Below are positions 3,280 to 17,392 of a stretch of DNA of 17,392 nt, in pieces. Location of the stretch: NCBI GenBank assembly GCA_023129675.1, contig JAGMBM010000146.1:1-17392 (forward strand), in the 5' to 3' direction. The notes under the pieces were generated by a model. The model saw nothing but the letters and a program-made list of their open reading frames with translations, made no database searches and was not told the DNA's origin. Numbering within the stretch: the stretch's first letter is position 1; each line of letters opens with the position of its first letter. The stretch is from Hadesarchaea archaeon. Lineage in GTDB: Archaea > Hadarchaeota > Hadarchaeia > Hadarchaeales > Hadarchaeaceae. The position numbers and the translations under genes were made by a program.

Positions 3280-4401
3280 TCACTTTCCACTTTGGCTTAA
3301 CAGACCCAGCACTATTTTTTCATTTGCTTCAACATTTTTCTTAGCATCGAAATTTTCAACAGTGTATTTTCTAGCGCTTTCCCCAAGTTTTTTCCTCAGC
3401 TCGTCTTCTTCTAACAATTTTATTATGGCACTAGCCAAGTTGTCGACATCCCTCTCGGGAACTAGGATGCCAGTTTCGTCGTGCTTGACGTACTCAGGAA
3501 TTGCCCCAGAACGTGTCGATACAACAGGCGTTCCGCACGCCATGCTCTGGATATTTACCATCCCGATTTGTTCGCCCCATCTTTTTGTGGTGATTGACGG
3601 GGTAACAGTCAAATCGACAGCACGGAAGTACGGCGGCAAGTCTCTATGCTTCACGATGCCTAGGGTCACGATATTTTTTTTCATGTCGTTGCTTTTCGAG
3701 TATCTTTCCATCTCCCTGCGGAGTGGACCCTCACCTATTATCACAAGCTTAACCCCTTTTATTACCTCACTCACTTTTTTAAAAGCTGGGAGCAAATATT
3801 TGATCCCTTTGGCTTCCTCAAGTTTCCCGACAAAAAGTATTGCGCGTCCAAAATTCGGTTCTAACCCATTTTTCTTTGGGGTAAACTCATCGACATCGAC
3901 CCCCCAAGTCCCCCACATACACCGTTTTAATTTGTTTTCGACCACGCCAACATCTAGAAGATTTCTTTTTGCGCCGTTGTTCAAGTAAAAAATAACTCTG
4001 GCATGTTTTGCATAAATTCTCAAGTATTTTTTCAAAAGTGGGGAGCCAACGGGGCCGAACTTTGTCTCGGGAGGCCTGTTTTCTAGCATCGGGAAAAATA
4101 GCGGCACATTCAAAAATTTAGACATCAAAAAACTTGCCGCACATGCTTGAATTGTTCTTGGAAACCCATATGGCTCTGAACCTTGGATTATATCTGGTTC
4201 GTGTTTTTTTATTTTATGGCATAAATCGAACACACTCGTGTAGCGAATTAAATCTTGATCGAACTCGCCGGGATACAAATCAGAATAAGGAGCATATTTG
4301 TAAAAATGGATGACCCTCAATTCTCGAAAATATTGGATTGGTGACAAAAGGTCTCTCCTGACATCAGTGCTTATCATCGCCATCGTTGGTTTATCTCGCA
4401 C
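3280..4401 (-). CDS. GT4-family glycosyltransferase with Gln in the second E-x7-E position
   Basis: Glycosyltransferase family 4, second gene of the minus-strand operon. The best start is GTG at 4401: GAGGAG at 4409-4414 sits seven bases upstream, inside the end of the preceding gene. An ATG at 4416 is in frame but has no good ribosome site. From 4401 the protein is 373 residues and reads into AMISTDVRRDLLSP, typical of archaeal members. The donor domain starts ILFVGKLEEAKGIKYLL (188-204), with IIGEGPLR (221-228). The usual E-x7-E is E277 ... Q285 in EQIGMVNIQ, so the second acidic residue is Gln, as I recall for a known subgroup. The CDS overlaps the preceding gene by 11 bp, indicating coupled translation. 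Donor and acceptor are unknown. Confidence 0.88.
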   Translation of the reverse strand: MRDKPTMAMISTDVRRDLLSPIQYFRELRVIHFYKYAPYSDLYPGEFDQDLIRYTSVFDLCHKIKKHEPDIIQGSEPYGFPRTIQACAASFLMSKFLNVPLFFPMLENRPPETKFGPVGSPLLKKYLRIYAKHARVIFYLNNGAKRNLLDVGVVENKLKRCMWGTWGVDVDEFTPKKNGLEPNFGRAILFVGKLEEAKGIKYLLPAFKKVSEVIKGVKLVIIGEGPLRREMERYSKSNDMKKNIVTLGIVKHRDLPPYFRAVDLTVTPSITTKRWGEQIGMVNIQSMACGTPVVSTRSGAIPEYVKHDETGILVPERDVDNLASAIIKLLEEDELRKKLGESARKYTVENFDAKKNVEANEKIVLGLLSQSGK

Positions 4402-5482
4402 GAGAAATCTCCTCATAAATTCTCAATGTCTTCATAGCCGTTTTTTCCCAAGAAAACGACTTCGCTCTCTTCAAGCCCTTCTTGATCATGTCTTCCCTTA
4501 AACCATCGTTCGTCAGAACTTCGTACATGGCATCTGCAAAACCATCGATGTCATGAGGATGTTTCATTATGCCGGCGTCTCCAACGACTTCTGGCAATGA
4601 AGACGCGTTTGAGGTAATCACTGGCAAGCCACAAGCCATCGCCTCTAGCGGCGGCAAACCGAACCCTTCGTAAATAGACGGGAACACGAACAAGTCTGCA
4701 GAGTTGTAAAATAAGGGCAACTCATCTTCAGGTACGTACTCGACGAATGTTACATCTTTGTTTAAACCCAGTTTGGTTATCAGTTTGAGCAATTTTTTTC
4801 TGCCCAGCCTGCAGCCAGCTTTCCCAACTTTAACCATTTTAACATCGGGGAGTTTCTTTTTGAGCTTATAGAAGGCTTTTATCAGCGACGGGACATTTTT
4901 TCTAAAATCCTCTGTCCCTGAGTACAGGATTGTTTTGCCTTGAAAGCAATTTGGCTTTTGAAAATCGTGGAGGGGCCTGTATGCCTTTAAATCCACACCG
5001 AGATGGGTAGCCTCCACTCGTTCCGAGGGATACTTTAGGTCTCTCACGACTTCTTTCTTTGTGAACTCTGAAATCGTTATTATTTTTTCCGCTTTCGCCA
5101 ACGCTCTTGCCCATATCGGTACATCGAGTTTATGAAGCAGATAGTTCAGTCTGCCATACTCTTTGCGCATGTTTTTTCCGAGCATATACACGGTGAAAAT
5201 GTCGAACACGGTCACAATGGAGTTTTCGCTGCCTATCGCATCCAACACATGCGCCTGTTCATGTGAGGCGATATGCACTATGCCCTCCTGCAGTTTTTTT
5301 CTAGTTATCCTAGGATAAACGAGGTGTTTAGGGGCCAGGGAAAGCAAGGGGAATTTCAAACCCCCATAGTCTATCACGTTAAACTCAACTTTATCCTTCA
5401 GATGTGCATAAATCGCCTTTTGATATCTCGACTGGCCGAAAATTTCGCCCGTCCTTTCGCCGACGATGTAATTTACTAGCAT
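4391..5482 (-). CDS. GT4-family glycosyltransferase
   Basis: Glycosyltransferase family 4, first gene of the three-GT operon. I take ATG at 5482, which has AAGGAT about eight bases upstream and opens [12 protein letters not shown] as homologues do. A GTG at 5509 would add nine charged residues. From 5482 the protein is 363 residues. [10 protein letters not shown] lies at 73-82. [11 protein letters not shown] (135-145) is the usual end of the N-domain. [12 protein letters not shown] (185-196) starts the donor domain, and the E-x7-E signature EGFGLPPLE has E272 and E280, followed by [19 protein letters not shown]. Such proteins are common mannosyl- or rhamnosyltransferases of surface glycans. 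It is divergent from the GT-B gene at 5650 across a spacer of about 165 bp. Confidence 0.92.
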
Positions 5483-5548
5483 ATCGATATCCTTCTTTAA
5501 TTTGCTCACACCATTCTAAAAGCTTGGCAAATCCAATCAAACTTTCGT

Positions 5549-5649: not shown

Positions 5650-7047
5650 ATGAAGACAGTAGTCATTACAATCACGCATGGGGGCGTAGTTAGAAACATC
5701 CTCCGGAGTGATATATTCAAAATTCTAAAGTCTAGAAGAGACTTGAGGATCGTCCTCGCTGTGTTACACCGAACACCGTTTTTTAACAGCAAGAGTTTCG
5801 CCGCCGAATTCAGCGGGGGAAACGTTATCGTGGAAAACGTGGGCATCAAGTCTAACATCGTTGAACGCGCGTTAAAAAAAATAGCGGAGATGATTTTTTT
5901 CAACATAAATTACAACGAGACGATCAGGTTAAAAGAAATGACGCTCAAAAAGAAAAATTATTTCAGATATTTAGGACTCAAATTCGTGAAAAAAGTTCTC
6001 GGCAAAAATAAGAACGTCATCGAAGCTCTAAAAAGGTTAGACATGTTTCTTTTTGGTTATAAGCACAGGTACTATAGAGAACTATTCGAAAAGTATAAAC
6101 CATCCTTGATTTTTTCAACAGATTTTTTGTGGCCACATGAATGGGGCTTGATAAAGGCAGCTGAACATTACGATGTGCCCGTAGTATCAATGGTACTCAG
6201 CTGGGATCATTTGGGCAAAGGGAGACTCCCCACGAAATTCGACAAAGTCATCGTTTGGAATGATTTTTTGAAGGGACAACTCATCGAGTACTATGGTTAC
6301 AGTCCAAACGACATATTCGTTTCTGGTATCCCACATTTCGACTATTACATTCATGACAAAGACAAACTTTCTTCTAGAAGGGAATTTCTCAAAAATGTTG
6401 GTACAGCCCCAAATGAAAAACTAATAACGTATACGACTTCCCCACTTGCCCTATCACCGTTTGGACAGGATGTAATCGAGATCATATGCGAGGCAATAAA
6501 AAATGGCGAAATAAAATATCCGTCGCACTTGCATGTGAGATTTCACCCTGCAGATAATTTTGGTCGCTACGAAAAACTGAAAAACCACGGGGATATCATA
6601 ACGTTTGAAACCCCGGGAAAATCTGCTTCGCGCGCCGGATATACGTGGCGTCCAGACAGGGCGGATATGCTCCACTATGCGAATCTCCTGTCTCACAGTG
6701 ATGTTATGATCAATGTGTGTTCGACGGTGACAATCGACGCGTCGTCATTTGATACCCCGGTTATTAACATCGCATTTGACGGGTACGAGAAGAAGCCTTA
6801 TTGGGATTCGACGGCTAGATATTATGATTACACTCACTACAAGAACATCGTCAAGACCGGGGGGGCAAAGATAGCGAGAGATAAAGAAGAGTTGATAAAA
6901 TACATCAATGAATACTTAAAGAACCCCAAGCTTGATAGCGATGGTCGGAAGAGGATTGTTGAAGAAATGTGTTATAAATTGGATGGGAAGGCGGGAGAGA
7001 GAATAGCGAGATATATCTTGAATTTTTTAAATGAAAAAGGTAGGTAA
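5650..7047 (+). CDS. GT-B-like surface carbohydrate biosynthesis protein
   Basis: A 465-residue protein that reads as a GT-B-fold transferase of the surface-carbohydrate / CDP-glycerol glycerophosphotransferase type, though without a tight family match. Visible landmarks are LIFSTDFLWPHEWG (153-166) and PVVSMVLSWDHLGKGR (177-192), the end of the N-terminal domain; KVIVWNDFLKGQL (199-211); then VSGIPHFDYY (224-233), a typical hinge; HVRFHP (295-300); and INVCSTVTIDASSFDTPVIN (354-373), the conserved donor-side Ser/Asp block. No membrane helix or signal peptide is seen. The N-terminal 60 residues (ITHGGVVRNILRSDIF) resemble an acceptor-domain first strand. It is followed after 26 bp by the MurG/PseG-like gene. 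Probably transfers a sugar or polyol phosphate in the same glycan; substrate unknown. Confidence 0.7.
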   Translation: MKTVVITITHGGVVRNILRSDIFKILKSRRDLRIVLAVLHRTPFFNSKSFAAEFSGGNVIVENVGIKSNIVERALKKIAEMIFFNINYNETIRLKEMTLKKKNYFRYLGLKFVKKVLGKNKNVIEALKRLDMFLFGYKHRYYRELFEKYKPSLIFSTDFLWPHEWGLIKAAEHYDVPVVSMVLSWDHLGKGRLPTKFDKVIVWNDFLKGQLIEYYGYSPNDIFVSGIPHFDYYIHDKDKLSSRREFLKNVGTAPNEKLITYTTSPLALSPFGQDVIEIICEAIKNGEIKYPSHLHVRFHPADNFGRYEKLKNHGDIITFETPGKSASRAGYTWRPDRADMLHYANLLSHSDVMINVCSTVTIDASSFDTPVINIAFDGYEKKPYWDSTARYYDYTHYKNIVKTGGAKIARDKEELIKYINEYLKNPKLDSDGRKRIVEEMCYKLDGKAGERIARYILNFLNEKGR

Positions 7048-7073
7048 AATGGAAGAAAAAGGCTAGTAGTTTT

Positions 7074-8153
7074 ATGGTTTCGATAAAAATATTTGTTTCA
7101 GATGAAGGGTTTGGGCATATCGTAAGGCAGAAAGCAATCATTGGCGAATTGATTAAACATGATGATGTTGATATCGTGCTTCAAACACAGAAACATTTTG
7201 AAGCAGCCCAGAACTTTATTGGGGGTGGAATATCGTATAATTTACAATTTAATAATATAATGACCATTAAAAAGGAAGATGGATCATTAGATATGGATAA
7301 AACATATGAATTTATTAAAAATTATCCAGAAAATTCTAAAGAACTTATTGAAAAAGAATTAGATAGTTTCAATTATGATTTTGTTATTTCAGATTTTGTC
7401 CCTGAAGCTTTTCACGTATCTAAAAGCTTAGGTATATCTAATTGTGGTGCTGCCCATTTCACTTGGGATTGGTTCTTCTCAAAACTATACCCAAGTGATA
7501 AGGCCCTTATCAATACGTTAAACAAATATGTGGAGTGCGTGGATGAAATTTATTTCCCACCGCTTACGCCTGATGAAAATTTGGATAAGTTTAAAGATAG
7601 AGCTAAAGTTGTTCCTTTCATAATAAGTGAAGATTATCTAGGACAAAAAACTAAAGAACCTGCAGAAAAACTTAGAATACTAATTAGTGATAGTGGTACT
7701 GGAGCATTGTACCACATAATAAAAAAGAATTTACCGGTTTTTAAAAGTATGACTGATTTTCATTTCTTTTTACCACCGATGTTCAAAGTTGAAGCCGACA
7801 ACATAACCATAATCTCAAGGACAGAAGACGTTCCTAAACTTATACCACAGTTAGATTTGGTAGTTGCTCGTGCCGGATTCAATACGATAACGATGTGTAT
7901 TATTGCTAGAGTTCCTTTGCTGTTAGTAGAGGAAAAGGGCAGTCCAGAAGTGGAGGAAAATTTGAGAAAAGTTAGTGAATTGGGATTATGTGGTGAATTA
8001 CCCCCTGAAAAATACAGCAATAATTTTAAATCGGAATTGGAGGAGTTCTTGAAAAAAGATTTTGATACCGTCAAGAAAAATATGCAGAATTATAAGTTTA
8101 AGACGAATGGAGCAGAGATAATTGCCAAAGAAATACTAAAAAGAATTAAATAA
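7074..8153 (+). CDS. MurG/PseG-like GT-B protein (GT28-related transferase or UDP-sugar hydrolase)
   Basis: A 359-residue protein of the GT28/GT1-like GT-B superfamily. The N-terminus has IFVSDEGFGHIVRQKAI (residues 6-22). Its G-x-G-H-x-x-R-like loop is shared by MJ1255-type archaeal glycosyltransferases and by PseG, the UDP-sugar hydrolase of pseudaminate synthesis. YDFVISDFVPEAFHVSKSLG (101-120) is the second strand/acceptor region. RILISDSGTGALYHI (201-215) begins the donor domain, and LVVARAGFNTITMCIIARVP (262-281) is the diphosphate-binding region, followed by E292 and E295. It directly precedes the NeuB-like gene, which makes a hydrolase role in nonulosonate supply possible. A transferase role is equally possible. 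The gene is visibly AT-richer than its upstream neighbours (14 G+C of 60 at 7261-7320). The ribosome site before ATG 7074 is weak. Confidence 0.75.
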   Translation: MVSIKIFVSDEGFGHIVRQKAIIGELIKHDDVDIVLQTQKHFEAAQNFIGGGISYNLQFNNIMTIKKEDGSLDMDKTYEFIKNYPENSKELIEKELDSFNYDFVISDFVPEAFHVSKSLGISNCGAAHFTWDWFFSKLYPSDKALINTLNKYVECVDEIYFPPLTPDENLDKFKDRAKVVPFIISEDYLGQKTKEPAEKLRILISDSGTGALYHIIKKNLPVFKSMTDFHFFLPPMFKVEADNITIISRTEDVPKLIPQLDLVVARAGFNTITMCIIARVPLLLVEEKGSPEVEENLRKVSELGLCGELPPEKYSNNFKSELEEFLKKDFDTVKKNMQNYKFKTNGAEIIAKEILKRIK

Positions 8154-8259
8154 TTAGAGGACGAAATTGAAAGCCGGAGATATGATCGCAGTTGAGTAAA
8201 TGTGAATCATACTACCGCCAGTAATACTGAATGTAATGACAAATGTTTGAGGTAATTGG

Positions 8260-9216
8260 ATGGTAAAGATCATAGCAGAACTCTGTAGAAATCACAACGG
8301 AAACCTAAACATTTTAAAAGAGATGATATGGAAAGTAGCTGATGCTGGAGCCACGTATGCTAAAATTCAGTCAATGCTGCCAGAAGAACTAACTTTTAGA
8401 GAAAGATTTGAAGAGGGGAAAATAGAAAATGGGCAACAAATTGTAATAAAAAGATCATACGGCCCAGAATTAGAAAGTATAAAGAAAACCCATTTATCCA
8501 ATGAAACACACTATTGGTTTATAGACGAATGCAAAGTCGCTGGTATAAAACCTCTTACGACTGTTTATTCCAGATCGAGAATACCCTTCCTTGCTTCTTT
8601 ACCTTGGCCTGATAAACATATTAAAGTCGCCAGTTGGGATTGTGGTTCACATCCGATGATTAAGGAACTCGAAAATTTTGATCACTTGTTTGTATCAACT
8701 GGTATGACTGAAAACCATGAGGTGGAGGAAACAGCAAGAATACTGAGCGGTCATAGTTTTACGTTTCTGCATTGTGTTGGCATTTACCCAACGCCACTTG
8801 AAAAAATTAATCTGACAAGAATAAATTACTTGAAAACCTTGGCATCAGAAGTGGGTTTTAGCGATCATACTGCTGCAGCTAAAGATGGTATTAAAGCTTC
8901 TATAGCAGCATTGATGTTTGATGTCGGTGTGATAGAAAGGCATTTTACAATTCTCGATAGATCTCGAACAAAAGACGGATCAGTTTCCATTGATTTCGAA
9001 CAATTAAAACAATTAGTTGAATTTTCAAAAATGAGGAAATCGGAGGTGGAAGATTACGTGGCAAAAAACGTGCCTGAGTTTCAGAACATGATTGGAGGTG
9101 AACATCCCAGGCCAAGTCACAAAGAGCTAATAACAAAAGATTACCAAAAAGGTAGGTTTGCAAGTAAAGTTAATGGAGATTGGGTTTTCAATTGGGAAGA
9201 CAAGAAGGTTTTCTAA
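8260..9216 (+). CDS. neuB: NeuB-like nonulosonate (sialic acid-family) synthase lacking a SAF domain
   Basis: Member of the N-acetylneuraminate synthase family, condensing phosphoenolpyruvate with a hexosamine-type aldose to give a nine-carbon 2-keto acid in the cytoplasm. The TIM-barrel signatures are clear: IIAELCRNHNGNL (4-16), AKIQ (34-37, K35), KVASWDCGSHPMI (122-134), STGMT (146-150), LHCVGIYPTPLEKINL (170-185), GFSDHT (199-204, with metal-ligand His203) and VIERHFT (224-230, His228). The usual strand reads K-I-A/G-S-G-E, so the WDCGS variant is unusual. NeuB is typically about 340-350 residues with a C-terminal antifreeze-like SAF domain. Here 318 residues end after about 40 residues of linker, so SAF is missing. 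TTGAGGTAATTGG before the ATG is a good ribosome site. The NeuA-like gene at 10298 completes a synthase/activation pair. Exact sugar (Neu5Ac, legionaminate or another) not determinable. Confidence 0.85.
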   Translation: MVKIIAELCRNHNGNLNILKEMIWKVADAGATYAKIQSMLPEELTFRERFEEGKIENGQQIVIKRSYGPELESIKKTHLSNETHYWFIDECKVAGIKPLTTVYSRSRIPFLASLPWPDKHIKVASWDCGSHPMIKELENFDHLFVSTGMTENHEVEETARILSGHSFTFLHCVGIYPTPLEKINLTRINYLKTLASEVGFSDHTAAAKDGIKASIAALMFDVGVIERHFTILDRSRTKDGSVSIDFEQLKQLVEFSKMRKSEVEDYVAKNVPEFQNMIGGEHPRPSHKELITKDYQKGRFASKVNGDWVFNWEDKKVF

Positions 9217-10199
9217 TTAGAATCATCAATCTCTTGAGAAAAAATTAAAGGTACAAGTTCTTTGATTTTTTGAACTAAATACACCCCAGTCTTTTTCTGT
9301 GCTTCAAATGTTCCGCCCCCTAGATGGGGTGTAATAATTAAATTCTCATTATTTTTTGCGTATTTAACAAGCGGGTTATGTATAACTGGGCTTTCTTCTG
9401 AAGCTTCATTCGCAAGAACATCTAGGGCCGCGCCTGCAATTAATTTGTTTTGAAGAGCATACAAGAGCGCCTTTTCATCTATAATTCTTCCACGGGCCGT
9501 ATTAATGAGAACAACACCACGTTTCATTAATTTAAACTCATCGTGGCTAATCATGTTTTCCGTTTCTGGTGTAAGAGTTGCATGGATAGATATCACATCG
9601 GATTTTTTGAGTAACTTTTCAAAAGGCAGGGGCGAAACCCCAGCCTCGTCCATTTTTTTCTGGTTAATGTAGGGATCAAAAGCGATTACATTCATCCCAA
9701 ATCCTTTGGCAATTTTTGTGACTATTGTCCCCAATCTGCCAAATCCGATCATGCCCAAAGTCTTACCATTTAGTTCAACTCCAAAAAACTTACTTCTATT
9801 CCACCCTTCTTTTCTTATCGAATCAAATGCCCAAGGAATTTTTCTTATCAGGCTTAGGAGCAATGCAAATGTATGTTCTGCGGTAGAAGGCACATTCTTC
9901 AGAAGTTCTATCGCGCCTTTTAAACTTATCACCCTTACATTTTTTTGCTCCGCATATGCTACATCTATATGGTCAAGCCCGGTAGTCCCAGTCGCTATAA
10001 TTTTTAATTTTTTTGCACGATTTATCAACTCTTTATCGATCCTAGTTTCCATCCTTATTACTAGAATCTCAAAATTCTCTATTCTTTTGAGAAGCTCTTT
10101 TCTATTCATTCTCCTACATTCAACGTTTCCAATTTCTTTCAGCATGGCGATATTTTCATCATCATAAGTTTTTGGTTCAGTTACCAAGATGTTAATCAT
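9213..10199 (-). CDS. D-2-hydroxyacid dehydrogenase (phosphoglycerate-dehydrogenase-like)
   Basis: NAD(H)-dependent D-isomer-specific 2-hydroxyacid dehydrogenase, 328 residues. The Rossmann loop is GMIGFGRLGTIV (149-160) with G152, G154 and G157, and D175 in VIAFDPYI suggests NAD preference. Catalytic residues are R236 in NTARGRIID (233-241), E265 in LANEA (262-266) and H292 in PHLGGG (291-296). The N-terminal substrate domain carries IATGTTGLDHID (68-79). The C-terminal ACT domain of serine-pathway SerA is absent, so this is the short type. It lies tail-to-tail with the NeuB-like gene, their stop codons overlapping by three bases, and divergent from the NeuA-like gene 98 bp away. The placement suggests action on a 2-keto/2-hydroxy acid in the nonulosonate route, or simply serine metabolism. 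Only the family is certain. Confidence 0.88.
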   Translation of the reverse strand: MINILVTEPKTYDDENIAMLKEIGNVECRRMNRKELLKRIENFEILVIRMETRIDKELINRAKKLKIIATGTTGLDHIDVAYAEQKNVRVISLKGAIELLKNVPSTAEHTFALLLSLIRKIPWAFDSIRKEGWNRSKFFGVELNGKTLGMIGFGRLGTIVTKIAKGFGMNVIAFDPYINQKKMDEAGVSPLPFEKLLKKSDVISIHATLTPETENMISHDEFKLMKRGVVLINTARGRIIDEKALLYALQNKLIAGAALDVLANEASEESPVIHNPLVKYAKNNENLIITPHLGGGTFEAQKKTGVYLVQKIKELVPLIFSQEIDDSN

Positions 10200-10254
10200 T
10201 TCTTCCCTATCTAGGGTATGTACTTGGAATTTAAAACATTACTACCATCATGGC

Positions 10255-10291
10255 ATTATATGTGTTAGAGCGTGATACAATAAAATTGGAG
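10255..10291 (+). promoter_or_regulatory. TATA-like box and SD site of the NeuA-like gene
   Basis: ATTATATG at 10255-10262 gives an expected transcript start near 10283, and GGAG at 10288-10291 then precedes ATG 10298 by six bases. The box lies inside the in-frame extension that starts at ATG 10250, which argues that 10250 is not the true start. Confidence 0.45.
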
Positions 10292-10297
10292 ATGCAA

Positions 10298-11044
10298 ATG
10301 ATGAAGAAAAGGCACAGAATTCTAGGGATAATACCCGCCCGCGGCAGTTCCAAGTCTATACCAAAGAAAAATATAGCTCCTCTTTTAGGCAAACCATTAA
10401 TTTCGTATACTATTGAAGAAGCTTTGAAAAGCAGATTTTTAACTAAACTGATAGTGTCTTCTGATGACGATAAAGTTATAAAAATAGCGAAAAAGTATGG
10501 CGCGGAAGTACCGTTTAAGAGACCAAAAGAACTAGCAGAAGACACCACACCAACATTACCAGTAGTACAACATGTGGTCAAAATGATGGAGGGGCTAAAT
10601 AAGATAACTTACGATTGGATAGTACTGATGCATGCAACTACGCCCCTGAAAACAGTAGAAGACATAGATAACGCGATCCAAAAGGCGATTAAGTCTGGAG
10701 CAGATTCTGTGGCAAGCGTAGTTCGTGTTTTGGATTATCATCCTATGAAGATGAAAAAAATAGAAAACGATAGGTTAGTAGAGTTCTCTGATGAATTGGC
10801 AGCTATACGTGGGGGGGAGATGGTAAGGAGACAGGATTTACCACCAGCTTACATTCGCAATGACTGTGTGTATGTGACAAAAAGAGATGTCTTAATGAAG
10901 GAAAACTCATTTTTTGGGAAAGATTGTAGACCATACATTATGCCAGAAGAACGATCATACAATATTCATGAAAAGCATGACCTTCTAATTGTAGATGCGT
11001 TAATGAAAGCTATGAGAAAAGGTAAATTTCAAAGAACTCGATAA
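10298..11044 (+). CDS. neuA: NeuA-like CMP-nonulosonate (acylneuraminate) cytidylyltransferase
   Basis: Cytidylyltransferase activating a nonulosonic acid with CTP to the CMP-sugar donor. The nucleotide-binding motif IIPARGSSKSIPKKNIAPLL is at the N-terminus (residues 10-29 from this start), followed by GKPLISYTIEEA, VSSDDDKVIKIA and the RRQDLPP motif with NDCVY. The usual late D-I-D motif is replaced by NIHEKHDLLI. From 10298 the protein is 248 residues, close to the family's short form of about 230. An in-frame ATG at 10250 would add 16 residues, but a TATA-like box lies inside that extension and GGAG sits just before 10298/10301. It pairs with the NeuB-like synthase. KDO cytidylyltransferase is less likely because of the PARGSSK and RRQDLP motifs. 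Confidence 0.87.
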   Translation: MMKKRHRILGIIPARGSSKSIPKKNIAPLLGKPLISYTIEEALKSRFLTKLIVSSDDDKVIKIAKKYGAEVPFKRPKELAEDTTPTLPVVQHVVKMMEGLNKITYDWIVLMHATTPLKTVEDIDNAIQKAIKSGADSVASVVRVLDYHPMKMKKIENDRLVEFSDELAAIRGGEMVRRQDLPPAYIRNDCVYVTKRDVLMKENSFFGKDCRPYIMPEERSYNIHEKHDLLIVDALMKAMRKGKFQRTR

Positions 11045-11106
11045 ATAAAAAACTGTAACTGGACAGTATACTTCATGCAAACCCTCACAAGTTTACCTCC
11101 CCTAAA

Positions 11107-11125
11107 CTTTTTCTCGATGGGGCAG
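11107..11125 (-). repeat. Copy A of a 19-bp motif downstream of the 11129-11728 methyltransferase
   Basis: Plus-strand AACTTTTTCTCGATGGGGC. Copy B at 12375-12393 differs in one base. On the minus strand both read CCC/T-ATC-GAG-AAA-AAG-TT, i.e. P-I-E-K-K-F, and similarity extends back into A-E-K-V codons. Here it lies outside any clear gene, just after the stop of the methyltransferase. Confidence 0.6.
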
Positions 11126-11128
11126 TAG

Positions 11129-11728
11129 TCATCTCTCCACCTTCTCCGCCACGACCCCGAAGTGCATCGAGTATTGGGGGAAAAACCGTAAGAAAATCCT
11201 ATAAAGCACGCCAATTAAGTTCGTGCTACCTTGTTCCCCAAAGTGCTGGACTTCGATAACCCTGAAGCCGTGACGTTTGAGCATTCGTGAAAGAAACTTG
11301 GGCGTGAAAACAAAATTATGAGTCCGACCCGCTTTTTCTTTAAACGTGAACCCCAAATATCGGGCGGTCGGGGTGGTTATCACCACGCGCCCCCCCTCGC
11401 GCAAATTTTCCCAAGCGCGGTCAAAGACAAGCCCGGAGTTATCCATGTGCTCCACGCACGCGCCCAACACCACGACGTCGAATTTGCGCTCGGAAACAAA
11501 GTTTTCGGCATTCGCGTAGATTACATTGTAGCCGAGATTTCGCATCACCTCTACGCCCTCCCGGTTGATGTCGATGCCCAAGACGAATTTTGCACGTACG
11601 ATGATTTCAGGACACGTATGAGTTCTACCAGTGAGTATGCGACGGAAGTCTCCGACGCAGCCCACGTCGAGTACGTCCTTGCCCCCGACGCGGCTAGCGA
11701 CCCACTCGACGCGCTCTGGGAGCCTCAT
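11129..11728 (-). CDS. SAM-dependent class I methyltransferase (paralogue 1)
   Basis: SAM-dependent methyltransferase, 199 residues from ATG 11728. This start is preceded by a purine-rich GGAGGGGAGGAG stretch, and an ATG at 11773 would add 15 unlikely residues. Motif I is DVGCVGD (21-27), motif II GIDINREG (51-58), NAENF (73-77), motif IV-like VVLGACVEHMDN (86-97), then GGRVVITTP (112-120). It ends in GVVAEKVER. There is no signal or membrane segment. It is the second of two tandem paralogues and starts 35 bp inside the upstream copy. Such enzymes in glycan clusters commonly methylate or cap sugars. The substrate is not evident. A stretch of DNA is almost identical to the upstream copy (see repeats). 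Confidence 0.85.
   Translation of the reverse strand: MRLPERVEWVASRVGGKDVLDVGCVGDFRRILTGRTHTCPEIIVRAKFVLGIDINREGVEVMRNLGYNVIYANAENFVSERKFDVVVLGACVEHMDNSGLVFDRAWENLREGGRVVITTPTARYLGFTFKEKAGRTHNFVFTPKFLSRMLKRHGFRVIEVQHFGEQGSTNLIGVLYRIFLRFFPQYSMHFGVVAEKVER
11438..11546 (-). repeat. Near-identical tract, copy in paralogue 1
   Basis: By hand alignment this 109-bp tract matches 12054-12162 except at two bases (11509, 11522). Positions 11438-11508 are identical over 71 bp. It encodes roughly R-N-L-G-Y-N-V-I through V-E-H-M-D-N. The flanking halves of the two genes differ much more. Confidence 0.85.
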
Positions 11729-12359
11729 CTCCTCCCCTCCGCACCGACTCCACCTTCTCCGCGATGACTCCAAACTTCATCGCAAGCAAGGGAAAAAAGC
11801 GCAGAAGCACCCTTTCGTAGAGCTTACCCACCAAGTTTAATTTGCCCTCGTCGCGGAAGAACTGAACCTCAACAACCCTGAAGCCGTGATGTCCGAGCAT
11901 CTGTGAAAGGTGCTTGAGTGTGTAAATAAGACGATGATCTCGCCCCACCATCTCTTTGAAGGCAACCCCCAAGTATCGGGCGTTCGGGGTGGTTATGATC
12001 AAATGGCCTTTTTCTCGCAAATTCTCCCAAGCGCGATCTAAAACCAGTCCCGGGTTATCCATGTGCTCCACGCACGCGCCCAACACCACGACGTCGAATT
12101 TGCGCTCGGAAACAAAGTTTTCGGAATTCGCGTAGATCACATTGTAGCCGAGATTTCGCATCCTCTCTATGCCCTCTCGGTTGATGTCGACACCCAAAAC
12201 GGATTTTGCACACGCCGCGATCCTAGGATGTAACAAACTTTTATCATTAGGGATATTCATGTGGTGGAAATCCCCGACGCACCCCACATCGAGCACGTTC
12301 TTGCTTTTAACATGTTCGCACACCCAGTCGATGCGCTTGGCGAGGCGAGGGGCAGTCAT
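11694..12359 (-). CDS. SAM-dependent class I methyltransferase (paralogue 2)
   Basis: SAM-dependent methyltransferase, 221 residues, paralogue of the downstream gene. Motif I is NVLDVGCVGD (21-30), VDIN REG at 58-63, the VVLGACVEHMDN block at 91-102, and IITTPNARYLG at 121-131. The natural end of the family by comparison with the sister gene is FGVIAEKVE (196-204). Here translation continues with an Arg-rich tail (SVRRGGDEAPRARRVGR) that is encoded over the ribosome site and start of the downstream gene, so a stop seems to have been lost. The ATG at 12359 overlaps the TGA of the small upstream ORF (ATGA), pointing to coupled translation. The 35-bp overlap with paralogue 1 couples those two as well. 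Confidence 0.85.
   Translation of the reverse strand: MTAPRLAKRIDWVCEHVKSKNVLDVGCVGDFHHMNIPNDKSLLHPRIAACAKSVLGVDINREGIERMRNLGYNVIYANSENFVSERKFDVVVLGACVEHMDNPGLVLDRAWENLREKGHLIITTPNARYLGVAFKEMVGRDHRLIYTLKHLSQMLGHHGFRVVEVQFFRDEGKLNLVGKLYERVLLRFFPLLAMKFGVIAEKVESVRRGGDEAPRARRVGR
12054..12162 (-). repeat. Near-identical tract, copy in paralogue 2
   Basis: Partner of 11438-11546: 107 of 109 bases match by hand, including an exact 71-bp run (12054-12124). Identity includes synonymous positions, while flanking parts of the two genes are clearly more diverged. Confidence 0.85.
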
Positions 12360-12457
12360 GTAGTTTTCCCCGTGAACTTTTTCTCGATAGGGCGGCCAGA
12401 CATCACCTTCTCTGCATCCTCTCTCTTCAGTTCCTCGAGCTTTGAACCGATTGCCAT
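12356..12457 (-). CDS. Small ORF (33 aa), possible leader peptide or gene remnant
   Basis: Reads MAIGSKLEELKREDAEKVMS then GRPIEKKFTGKTT, hydrophilic and Lys-rich, predicted helical in the first half. AGGGG lies about eight bases before ATG 12457. A GTG at 12487 in the same frame would add ten residues. A good TATA-like box lies upstream at 12519-12527. Its TGA overlaps the ATG of the paralogue 2 methyltransferase (ATGA). The part AEKV...RPIEKKF resembles the 3' end and downstream flank of paralogue 1, so it may be the tail of a lost third methyltransferase copy rather than a working peptide. No known family recognised. Confidence 0.45.
   Translation of the reverse strand: MAIGSKLEELKREDAEKVMSGRPIEKKFTGKTT
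12375..12393 (-). repeat. Copy B of the PIEKKF-coding 19-bp motif
   Basis: One mismatch from copy A at 11107-11125. Here it lies within the small ORF just upstream of paralogue 2. The two copies therefore bracket the methyltransferase pair. Confidence 0.6.
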
Positions 12458-12518
12458 CAGCTTACCCCTTACAGTTACTAAACTCACTCCCTCACTTTAT
12501 TCTTTTATTTTCTGTCTG

Positions 12519-12527
12519 CTTTTATAA
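12519..12527 (-). promoter_or_regulatory. TATA-like box for the methyltransferase operon
   Basis: Minus strand TTATAAAAG, followed about 25 bp downstream by an A-rich start region near 12498. It would drive the small ORF and both methyltransferases. A perfect 10-bp palindrome CTCGATCGAG lies just upstream (12533-12542). Confidence 0.45.
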
Positions 12528-12556
12528 CCTCTCTCGATCGAGCTTTTAGGCGAGTT

Positions 12557-12582
12557 CCTCGTCCTTCTCAGAAGGGGCGAGG
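12557..12582 (-). terminator. Strong GC-rich hairpin after the transporter remnant
   Basis: CCTCG/CGAGG (12557-12561 and 12578-12582) encloses CCTTC/GAAGG (12563-12567 and 12571-12575) around a TCA loop. It lies just past the minus-strand stop at 12593, where a transcript of the remnant would end. There is no T-tract, so a true terminator role is uncertain. Confidence 0.3.
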
Positions 12583-12592
12583 GGCGTGGCGT

Positions 12593-12745
12593 TCACCCCT
12601 CGGTCTTCTTCTTCGGTATGAGCGACTTCACGCAGAGCATCGCCGCCACTCCGAGCATGCCCAACGCCCCCGCAAAGACCACTTGCTGGCTCTGCTCTGA
12701 AGACAGCGCACCCGTCACGACGGTTCCGCCTCCCCTAGACAGGTT
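12593..12745 (-). pseudogene. 3' remnant of a membrane transporter-like gene (MFS type?)
   Basis: On the minus strand the frame ending at TGA 12593-12595 reads VVTGALSSEQS, then the hydrophobic run QQVVFAGALGMLGVAAMLC, then VKSLIPKKKTEG. This is one transmembrane helix with a basic cytosolic tail, the usual look of the last helix of a major-facilitator transporter. Upstream of about 12735 the frame turns polar (LITRRNLSRGGG) and the rest of the gene is gone. No start codon with a ribosome site is visible. The truncation point coincides with the 5' truncation of the GH88 remnant on the other strand. Membrane-protein identity is fairly clear, MFS membership is inference from one helix. Confidence 0.5.
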
Positions 12746-13241
12746 TCTCCGAGTAATCAGAAAAACAACTTGGCAAGGATATGACGATGACTCCTGCTGG
12801 TCGAGGGGACAGGCGCGGAGTATCTACGGTTTCACGCTGGCCCACAAAGCTACCGAAGAGGAAGTATTTTTAAGCGTCGCGGAGAAGCTTGCGGATTATT
12901 TCATCAAAAATTTACCCGCAGATTATGTTCCCTATTGGAATTTTAATGACCCGCGGATTCCAAACGCCCCTAGAGACAGCTCTGCCGCAGCGATAGCCTG
13001 CTCCGGGCTAATGACATTATCTAAGCTCAACGGAAAGAAGAAATTCATGGACATGGCGAACAGGATTTTAAGCTCCCTATCTACAAACTACATTGCGGAA
13101 GAGAGCTGCGATGGGATATTAAAGCACGGATGTTTCCACATGCCAAAGAAGGTTGGGGTCGACGAGAGTTTAATATGGGGAGATTATTACTTCCTAGAAG
13201 CACTAATGAAAAGTAGCGATGAGCCGCAGGATGGTGAATAA
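12745..13241 (+). pseudogene. 5'-truncated GH88 unsaturated glucuronyl hydrolase
   Basis: C-terminal half of a family GH88 hydrolase, which removes unsaturated uronic acid from polysaccharide fragments. Recognisable blocks are WQGYDDDSCWSRGQARSIYG (12768-12827, containing the catalytic Asp of the family's DDSxWxRGQ motif), ADYVPYWNFN, APRDSSAAAIACSGLM, HGCFHMPKKVGVDESLIWGD and YYFLEAL near the normal end. The family has about 370-400 residues; only some 155-165 remain and the N-terminal half with the other active-site Asp is missing. An in-frame ATG at 12618 opens a longer frame, but its first 40 or so codons are antisense to the transporter remnant and do not resemble GH88. Very likely inactive. 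It ends TAA directly before the next ATG. Confidence 0.85.
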
Positions 13242-14384
13242 ATGAGGTTTGCATGCGTGGAACTTTACACGAAATATGGGAAGATATGGGATAGGGCAAA
13301 AGAGAAACCAAACTACCTTTGTGATCCTAAAACTGAAATCGATACATGCTCTTTTGGTTGTTGGACAAGTGCATTGGGTGGCGAGCATGTCCCCTTGCTG
13401 TGGTTTAAATTAAGGAAACCAGTAAGGTATATCTATCACAATTATCTTGCACCACGCATGTCAAGATTTAATTATGCTGGTTATTCAATCGTGTCGAAAT
13501 TGATCAATAGAGCACTTGATAAATTTTACAATTTACAATACGTCACGAAATTTGACGTCGTTCTAATTGTTGTACATGATTATTCGATTCGTGAAATGGC
13601 CAAATTTATAGTTAAAGCAAAAAAATTGCGAAAAAAGCCAATATTTCTCGGTGCCCTAGGTAATACGCTCGATTCGTTCCGAGAAACGTTAAAAGACAAG
13701 GACGCGTTTAGATTTTTTAAAATCTTTATCGATAACTGCGATGTGTTTGTAAACTATTACCATGAAGCCATTTCAGATTATCTGGGGCTTTATACCGACA
13801 CGCCAATAGTGAATTTTCCCCAATTCTACCCATTCGAATTCGCGAAATCTTTCTTTGAACCATACGAAAACAAGGAAAAAATAATTTTTGTTTCTGGGGA
13901 TACTTCAAGAACTGACCATATCTCCTCCCTATTAATCGCGAAAAAAATTCAAGCGCAATACCCCGATTTTTTGATAGAGGTGATAGGCAGGCCCTCACTT
14001 AACTTAGAACCATTAAAAAACTCAAGGTACAAAGTAACCCCCTTCTTTGAGTGGATAGATTACCTCAAGCATACCGGGAAGACCCACATTATCATAGATA
14101 TGGATAACACATGGACCCTCGGGAGGGTTGTAAGAGATGCAGCCGTTGTTGGCACACCATGTATCGGATTGAATTCGGAAAGTCAGAAAAGCCTTTTCCC
14201 CAATCTGGTGTGCTCAGATATCACTGATACTAAAAAAGCCATTGACTTGGGGATTAAACTGATAGAAGATAGGAAATTTTATGAAAGGGTTCAAAAAAAG
14301 GCTTTTAAACGGTTGGAAGCGTATTCCTACGAAAATTCGGTAAAAAGATTAAGCGGAATATTAGAAGAATATACAAAAAAATAA
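13242..14384 (+). CDS. GT-B-like glycosyltransferase (unassigned family)
   Basis: A 380-residue protein with the shape of a GT4-like/GT-B enzyme. The N-terminal half has FDVVLIVVHDYSIREMAKF (104-122) and KKPIFLGALG (131-140). VFVNYYHEAISDYLG (168-182) and PIVNFPQFYP (188-197) form the usual hinge. IIFVSGDTSRTDHIS (214-228) starts the donor domain. IIIDMDNTWTLGRVVRDAA (283-301) with GTPCIGLNSESQ (304-315) is the donor-side block. The E-x7-E motif is not obvious, so the sugar-binding mode may differ. GGTGA lies inside the end of the GH88 remnant, and the ATG abuts its TAA, so translation is coupled to a broken gene. A T7 tract ends the transcript. Family-level confidence only; it may transfer a sugar to the same glycan. 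Confidence 0.65.
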   Translation: MRFACVELYTKYGKIWDRAKEKPNYLCDPKTEIDTCSFGCWTSALGGEHVPLLWFKLRKPVRYIYHNYLAPRMSRFNYAGYSIVSKLINRALDKFYNLQYVTKFDVVLIVVHDYSIREMAKFIVKAKKLRKKPIFLGALGNTLDSFRETLKDKDAFRFFKIFIDNCDVFVNYYHEAISDYLGLYTDTPIVNFPQFYPFEFAKSFFEPYENKEKIIFVSGDTSRTDHISSLLIAKKIQAQYPDFLIEVIGRPSLNLEPLKNSRYKVTPFFEWIDYLKHTGKTHIIIDMDNTWTLGRVVRDAAVVGTPCIGLNSESQKSLFPNLVCSDITDTKKAIDLGIKLIEDRKFYERVQKKAFKRLEAYSYENSVKRLSGILEEYTKK

Positions 14385-15963: not shown

Positions 15964-16563
15964 ATGCGAAACAGACCCTTTGTCAACCGTTACCTCCAAG
16001 AGCTGGAATCGGTAATTAAGCGCATATCACAGGAAGATATCGATGGGGTAATAGAGATTCTGTATGGAGCGTGGAAAGGCGAGCGACAAGTTTTCTTAGC
16101 GGGGAACGGTGGTTCAGCTGCGACGGCAACACACTTTGCAAGTGACCTATCGAAGTTCGCTTCGGTAGAGGGCAAGAAGAGGTTTAAGGCAATGGCTTTG
16201 ACAGAAAACATGTCCCTAGTTACGGCGCTAACCAACGACTTGGGATGGGAAAACGTCTACGTCGAGCAGCTGAAGAACTTGATGCGTGAAGGCGACGTTT
16301 TAGTTGTAATTAGCGTTCACGGAGGCGCCGGGGCCGAGAAAGCGGGCCCTTGGTCTCAAAATCTCTTGAAAGCGGCTAAATTTGTCAAGGATAATGGTGG
16401 AAAGGTCGTAGGGCTGGCGGGCTTCGACGGTGGCGTTTTGAAGCAAATCTCCGATGCGTGCATAGTCGTGCCCATAAACTCCACGCCGCATGTGGAGGGG
16501 TTCCACTCGGTGCTGGCCCACCTTATTTGTGCGAGACTACGCGAGTTGATAGCTGAATCTTAA
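15964..16563 (+). CDS. gmhA: GmhA-like SIS-domain isomerase (sedoheptulose 7-phosphate isomerase)
   Basis: SIS-domain phosphosugar isomerase of the GmhA group, converting sedoheptulose 7-phosphate to a heptose 7-phosphate, the first step of heptose supply. The 199 residues match. The phosphate loop is LAGNGGSAATATHFASDLSK (45-64) and ALTNDLGWENVYVEQL lies at 88-103. The second loop reads SVHGGAGAEKAGPWSQNLLK (117-136) instead of the usual S-T/A-S-G-N-S, a longer variant. The end has HVEGFHSVLAHL (176-187) with the active-site-type His181. In E. coli GmhA the zinc/catalytic Glu of HFAEE is Asp61 here (HFASD). It sits directly before the GmhB-like gene with an overlap-free four-base gap, forming an operon. 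Confidence 0.85.
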   Translation: MRNRPFVNRYLQELESVIKRISQEDIDGVIEILYGAWKGERQVFLAGNGGSAATATHFASDLSKFASVEGKKRFKAMALTENMSLVTALTNDLGWENVYVEQLKNLMREGDVLVVISVHGGAGAEKAGPWSQNLLKAAKFVKDNGGKVVGLAGFDGGVLKQISDACIVVPINSTPHVEGFHSVLAHLICARLRELIAES

Positions 16564-16576
16564 GGAAGTGTTGCAC

Positions 16577-17164
16577 GTGAGGGCCGTGTTTTTGGACAGG
16601 GACGGTGTGATAAACGAGATCGTTTATTTCCCGGAGCTTGGCGTGTTGAACTCGCCCCTTAACCCTAAACAGTTCAAACTGCTGCCTGGTGTTGCTAAGG
16701 CGATTAGAATTTTTAACAGGTTGGGTCTGAAAGTTGTTGTTGCATCAAACCAGCCGGCTATGGCAAAGGGCAAGATGACGAAGGAGCTTTTTGAAAAAAT
16801 CCGGTTGAAAATGAGAAGGGAGCTCAGGAAGGGTGGCGCGCGCATAGATGCTGAATACTACTGTTTTCATCACCCGTCCGCGAAGTATGCGAAATACAGG
16901 GTCAGGTGCAAGTGCAGGAAGCCGAAACCCGGCCTTCTTTTAAAGGCAGCTAATGATCTTGGACTGGATCTCTCGAAAAGTTACCTCGCGGGCGACAGTT
17001 TGACGGATATCGAGGCGGGTAGGGCGGTCGGCTGCAAGACATTCCTGATAGGTTATTTAAAGAGTTATCTGGCTAAGTTAATTGAGGATAAAGGTGTCAG
17101 ACCCGACTTTATCGTGCCGAGCTTGCTCCATGCGGCAAAAATCATCAAAAAAGAGGTGAGTTAG
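16577..17164 (+). CDS. gmhB: GmhB-like HAD phosphatase (heptose 1,7-bisphosphate 7-phosphatase)
   Basis: HAD-superfamily phosphatase of the GmhB/HisB-N type, removing the 7-phosphate of a heptose 1,7-bisphosphate. From GTG 16577 (GGAAG eight bases upstream) it begins MRAVFLDRDGVIN, with nucleophile D7 and acid D9. A GTG at 16568 would add three residues. Motif II is ASNQP (56-60), motif III K117 in CRKPKPGL, and motif IV AGDSLTDIEAG (138-148) with D140 and D144. The zinc loop ligands C96, H98, C111 and C113 are all present, distinguishing GmhB/HisB from other HADs. The 195 residues are normal. Histidinol-phosphatase is the alternative, but GmhA directly upstream favours heptose. Stop codon TAG overlaps the next GTG. 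Confidence 0.88.
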   Translation: MRAVFLDRDGVINEIVYFPELGVLNSPLNPKQFKLLPGVAKAIRIFNRLGLKVVVASNQPAMAKGKMTKELFEKIRLKMRRELRKGGARIDAEYYCFHHPSAKYAKYRVRCKCRKPKPGLLLKAANDLGLDLSKSYLAGDSLTDIEAGRAVGCKTFLIGYLKSYLAKLIEDKGVRPDFIVPSLLHAAKIIKKEVS

Positions 17165-17392
17165 TGGAGATTTTCCTCGACACAGCCAGCGTGAAAGAGA
17201 TAAAGGAGATTCTACCTTGGGGGATCGTTACCGGGGTTACCACCAATCAGAAAATATTCTTAGCAGAGAAGGGCGTCAAGTTCGAGGATAGGGTTCGTGA
17301 GATATTGTCGCTCGTGGATGGCTCGATCAGTATAGAGCTAACAAAGACTAAGGGCTCCTTCGATGATCTTATCAACGAGGCTAGGGAGTACG
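17164..17392 (+). CDS. Transaldolase / fructose-6-phosphate aldolase family, cut by window end
   Basis: N-terminal 76 residues of a small (TalC/FSA/MipB-type) transaldolase, a class I aldolase with a Schiff-base Lys beyond the window. IFLDTASVKEI has D6, and GVTTNQK (24-30) holds the conserved T26 and N28; the usual following Pro is Gln29. SISIELT (54-60) is the third strand. Start is GTG 17164, with an excellent GAGGTGAG three bases before it, overlapping the TAG of the previous gene by one base. Directly behind GmhA and GmhB, it could produce sedoheptulose 7-phosphate for them. The rest of the gene, including the active-site Lys, is not visible. Confidence 0.85.
   Translation, partial: MEIFLDTASVKEIKEILPWGIVTGVTTNQKIFLAEKGVKFEDRVREILSLVDGSISIELTKTKGSFDDLINEAREY

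Follow-up and report, generated by a model that had tools for sequence, protein, structure and literature searches.

Surface-polysaccharide loci that undergo rearrangement carry truncated genes lying back to back among glycosyltransferase genes, together with strand flips and tandem duplicates. The archaeal locus described here shows the same pattern, and its difference from gene remnants at surface-polysaccharide loci generally is limited to the particular genes involved. One remnant shares its C-terminal blocks with the Bacillus unsaturated glucuronyl hydrolase (UGL; GH88, PDB 1vd5), while approximately 190 N-terminal residues are gone, and with them the counterparts of Asp88 and Asp149, two residues of the solved enzyme that we take to matter for catalysis. 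The other remnant has, in the same order, the RGG linker, SSEQ-like stretch, hydrophobic segment and VK..KK tail of archaeal Ig-like surface proteins (those of G008 and G014, two genomes of the same family); unlike these proteins, it retains only about 50 residues and no Ig-like domain.

The window, meaning the whole stretch of 17,392 nucleotides analysed, is one whole contig of a metagenome-derived genome that comprises 975,796 bases in 245 contigs and is 78.8% complete. The features that bear on the join are as follows.

11694–12359, minus strand: methyltransferase gene to the left of the join, found on five contigs, the longest of 141447 bases
12593–12745, minus strand: C-terminal remnant, probably of an Ig-like surface protein, with a linker, one hydrophobic segment, a basic tail and a stop codon at 12593–12595
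12745–12750: the join, with GH88 homology from 12750 and the surface-protein frame recognisable to about 12745
12618–13241, plus strand: fortuitous ORF of 207 residues (P0001) spanning the join, identical on five contigs, the longest of 141447 bases
12750–13241, plus strand: what remains, up to and including the stop codon, of the C-terminal part of a gene of GH88 type (unsaturated glucuronyl hydrolase-like), placed by alignment to homologue P0003
13242–14384, plus strand: intact glycosyltransferase-like gene, starting at the base after the GH88 stop codon

Two C-terminal remnants

The GH88 homology and the surface-protein frame meet within a few bases of 12745–12750, and the first-pass annotation was right that a pair of truncated genes points away from a single junction. 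On the plus strand, residues 193–348 of P0003 (352 residues) align to 12750–13217 with 78% identity, and the last 163 residues of a GH88-type protein are encoded by 12750–13238. The segment RVIRKTTWQG, read from 12750, matches P0003 exactly, and the three residues before it do not match (alignment A1). The gene had been described as starting at a DDSxWxRGQ block at 12768; that block is indeed kept, but homology begins 18 bases earlier. The remnant retains this region as a QGY-S-WsRGQA block as well as the C-terminal WGDYYFLEAL block (A1), and keeps 38 of the 41 columns that are invariant in 19 homologues. The three altered columns (W, Y and D) place it, tied with the much more distant P0103, highest among the 20 rows, and at looser conservation cut-offs (18 or 17 of 19) other rows carry more changes than it does. 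This small excess of changes at conserved columns weakly suggests relaxed constraint on the remnant. Its frame contains no stop in 163 codons, and therefore the loss may be recent.

The missing part, residues 1–192 of P0003, has no credible match in the window (elsewhere only at E > 0.5) and none in the contigs of its own genome at E up to 10. At E up to 0.1 the remnant has no listed match to the Pfam family PF07470, and full-length P0003 matches this family at 4.2e-13. Against 1vd5, P0003 aligns over residues 9–348 (E 2.9e-59), and Asp88 and Asp149 of that structure, counted on the alignment, face P0003 residues well below 193; 2ahf, the second solved sequence listed, has Asn instead of Asp at residue 88. 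The remnant is probably inactive, because the part it has lost aligns with the stretch that holds both aspartates. Shortened GH88 proteins also occur elsewhere: P0011 (257 residues) and P0111 (205 residues) lie on contigs longer than 10 kb. Together with P0079, a homologue of 285 residues that is probably cut by a contig end, they are the three shorter than 300 residues among the 59 GH88 homologues on contigs of at least 5 kb in the matches listed.

On the minus strand, 76 open codons lead to the TGA at 12593–12595, about 50 of them before the join, and the recognisable portion runs from a linker rich in Gly through one hydrophobic stretch to a KKK tail. Its GC content by codon position (0.60/0.48/0.80) is coding-like. 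Among 41 genomes, its own included, a search at E up to 10 gave four matches besides the piece itself. The only convincing match is to G008, a genome of the same genus (E 0.0027, 33% identity over residues 9–56), the other three having E values of 0.17–0.25. This match is the end of a 227-residue open frame that begins at a contig edge, and residues 1–199 of that frame are 73% identical to a 1661-residue ORF of G014 that carries Laminin_G_3, Big_13, fn3 and other Ig-like Pfam domains. The alignment to G008 scores 69, and none of 2000 shuffles reached this value (mean 27.7, sd 5.7) when linker, hydrophobic segment and tail were each shuffled within their own composition; the shuffles make no correction for the preselection of G008 as the best search match. 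The alignment to G014 is weaker, with a score of 40 reached by 22 of 2000 shuffles. Such surface proteins are widespread in the genus and order: 22 of 28 genomes searched have representatives, and the own genome gives 16 matches. Within the own genome, no other protein shows a similar anchor at E up to 10, the piece has no Pfam match, and no Ig-like or lectin-like domain precedes the anchor in the remnant, where the frame ends at the join. The piece had been read as the end of a transporter; its translation shows one hydrophobic stretch, the rest of the protein being lost, and the resemblance to the G008 C-terminus makes an Ig-like surface protein, of which the piece would be the membrane anchor, the better and probable reading.

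Setting of the join among glycan genes

To the left of the join lie genes for glycosyltransferases, methyltransferases, a NeuB-like synthase and a cytidylyltransferase, and to its right are glycosyltransferase-like, isomerase-like and phosphatase-like genes. As far as the window shows, the join thus lies inside the cluster and away from its edge, and the earlier suggestion that it marks the border of a glycan island is not supported. Several other features of the window were recorded. The minus-strand methyltransferase genes at 11129–11773 and 11694–12359 are tandem duplicates with 82% DNA identity over 350 bases, and a 25-base stretch before the first of them (12369–12393) recurs after the second (11099–11123; 88% identical, E 0.073). 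GC content is low across about 5850–11100 (mostly 0.29–0.41, against about 0.45–0.57 in the flanks), a segment that contains the NeuB-like (8260–9216) and PseF-like (10250–11044) genes. GmhA-like isomerase and HAD-type phosphatase genes stand in a row at 15964–17391, and the ORF after the phosphatase gene, cut by the end of the window, is presumably transaldolase-like, judged by eye.

GH88 and the adjacent glycosyltransferase are missing from nearly all related genomes. The GH88 remnant was found in none of 60 relatives by single-sequence search, and a profile from A1 found matches in two of 374 genomes, its own and one other, in which a larger protein of different make-up contains a distant match. 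Searches with the glycosyltransferase gave no intact pair in any of 27 relatives, and a profile of this family (A2) recovered only the own genome among 374. Against genome contigs, the GH88 piece matched 20 loci at 28–48% identity, nearly all bacterial and one from a nanoarchaeon; in one of these, from a Parcubacterium (L010), no neighbour resembles the glycosyltransferase of the window when the gene list is inspected by eye. Scans of viral contigs yielded no relative. Neither an intact divergent pair with both full genes nor an intact ancestor was found in the relatives searched.

Possible origins of the join

Back-to-back C-terminal ends can be left by one deletion if the two genes were divergent, or by one inversion if they were co-oriented. 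We lean, with modest confidence, towards a single deletion between divergent genes, by illegitimate recombination in an archaeal surface-glycan locus. Such recombination would have produced the join by removing, in one deletion, the 5' part of the GH88 gene, the 5' part of the surface gene on the opposite strand and whatever lay between them. Two inactive C-terminal ends would remain, with the glycosyltransferase gene after GH88 left intact. The surface gene would have been long, the two genes divergent and the loss a single event. Deletion is the simplest cause, with the 5' half of the GH88 gene not found in the contigs of an incomplete genome. The first-pass annotation had called the arrangement the exact product of one deletion; this is plausible rather than demonstrated, as an inversion would leave an identical join and the relatives searched include no intact ancestor. 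Further points against the deletion reading are the lack of a second protein with this anchor among the matches in the own genome, the stop-free GH88 frame and the small number of changes at its conserved columns. Within 12300–13300, no repeat is longer than 21 nt, and one 14-nt inverted repeat pair lies across the join. A DNA search with 12380–12770 returned, outside the own genome, only matches of about 15–32 bases with E values of 0.002 or worse. We read the join as genuine but unremarkable, an instance of common gene decay at a glycan locus undergoing rearrangement.

An inversion of the stretch between a co-oriented surface gene and GH88 gene, with breaks inside both and the 5' halves meeting at its other end, is a less probable origin, though one with some precedent in the island itself. 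The epimerase (1198–2130) and a glycosyltransferase (4391–5509) lie on opposite strands in the window, while their homologues in G001, a genome of the same genus (L047; 83% and 81% protein identity), overlap and are co-oriented. The reciprocal join that an inversion would leave has not been seen, since the GH88 5' half is unmatched in the own contigs, but this absence weighs little against inversion because the genome is only 78.8% complete.

A stepwise mosaic, in which an already headless GH88 gene and its glycosyltransferase recombined as a module into or beside an already broken surface gene, is somewhat more doubtful again. The absence of both genes from nearly all related genomes would fit such an arrival, as would the fall in GC content across the join (about 0.55 on its left side, about 0.35 by 13500), the differing third-position GC of the minus-strand remnant (0.80), GH88 (0.53) and the glycosyltransferase (0.39), and the existence of shortened GH88 proteins elsewhere; on the other hand, more than one event is needed and no donor junction is seen.

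It is very improbable that the 207-residue ORF encodes a working short protein derived from the C-terminal half of GH88: the frame is open throughout and the glycosyltransferase start follows directly, but the first 44 residues of the ORF overlap the surface-protein remnant in antisense, the part aligned with Asp88 and Asp149 is missing, and three of the 41 columns invariant in 19 homologues are altered. Equally improbable is the joining of two unrelated places by the assembly of a fragmented metagenome-derived genome; although the five contigs that carry P0001 may come from the same sample or have been assembled anew from one set of reads, the join is present in several assemblies, and a one-off chimera is unlikely because one identical P0001 sequence occurs on all five and genes on both flanks (glycosyltransferase P0121; methyltransferases P0160 and P0162) show the same count and the same longest contig.

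GH88 and its glycosyltransferase neighbour

The first-pass annotation had taken GH88 to be foreign to glycan assembly genes. Among the matches listed, the homologues of GH88 and those of the adjacent glycosyltransferase have at least four longest contigs identical to the base (10468, 10225, 6674 and 8355), contig sameness being taken from equal lengths in bases as listed, and within each pair the source tags agree. The GH88 side of this comparison comprised 119 homologues (the best 120 of 1361, with its own removed) and the glycosyltransferase side 38 (39 found, with its own removed). When lengths were jittered, 0.32 shared values were expected, and four or more occurred in 0.075% of 4000 trials. 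A corresponding link between the methyltransferase and the glycosyltransferase, through one shared contig of 4568, was set aside as not above chance (0.14 expected; one or more in 13% of trials). Because GH88 homologues appear to share contigs with homologues of the glycosyltransferase, and because glycan genes stand on both sides, GH88 is probably a regular member of the glycan cluster. The first reading is thus amended twice: what remains on the minus strand suggests a surface protein, and GH88 is probably at home among its neighbours.

This pairing is the most interesting thread of the analysis. Unsaturated uronides made by lyases are not expected in archaeal surface-glycan assembly clusters of this kind, and a limited literature search found no description of GH88 in archaeal glycan clusters. 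It is a tentative and rather long-shot proposal that some such clusters regularly include GH88-family proteins together with a glycosyltransferase family as yet uncharacterised, that these proteins may trim or modify a uronic-acid-bearing glycan there, and that losing them, as at this locus, would offer a natural way to switch the structure of the coat. Should the pairing of GH88 with the glycosyltransferase hold in full contigs, it would raise a testable question about the role of a uronide hydrolase where glycans are assembled.
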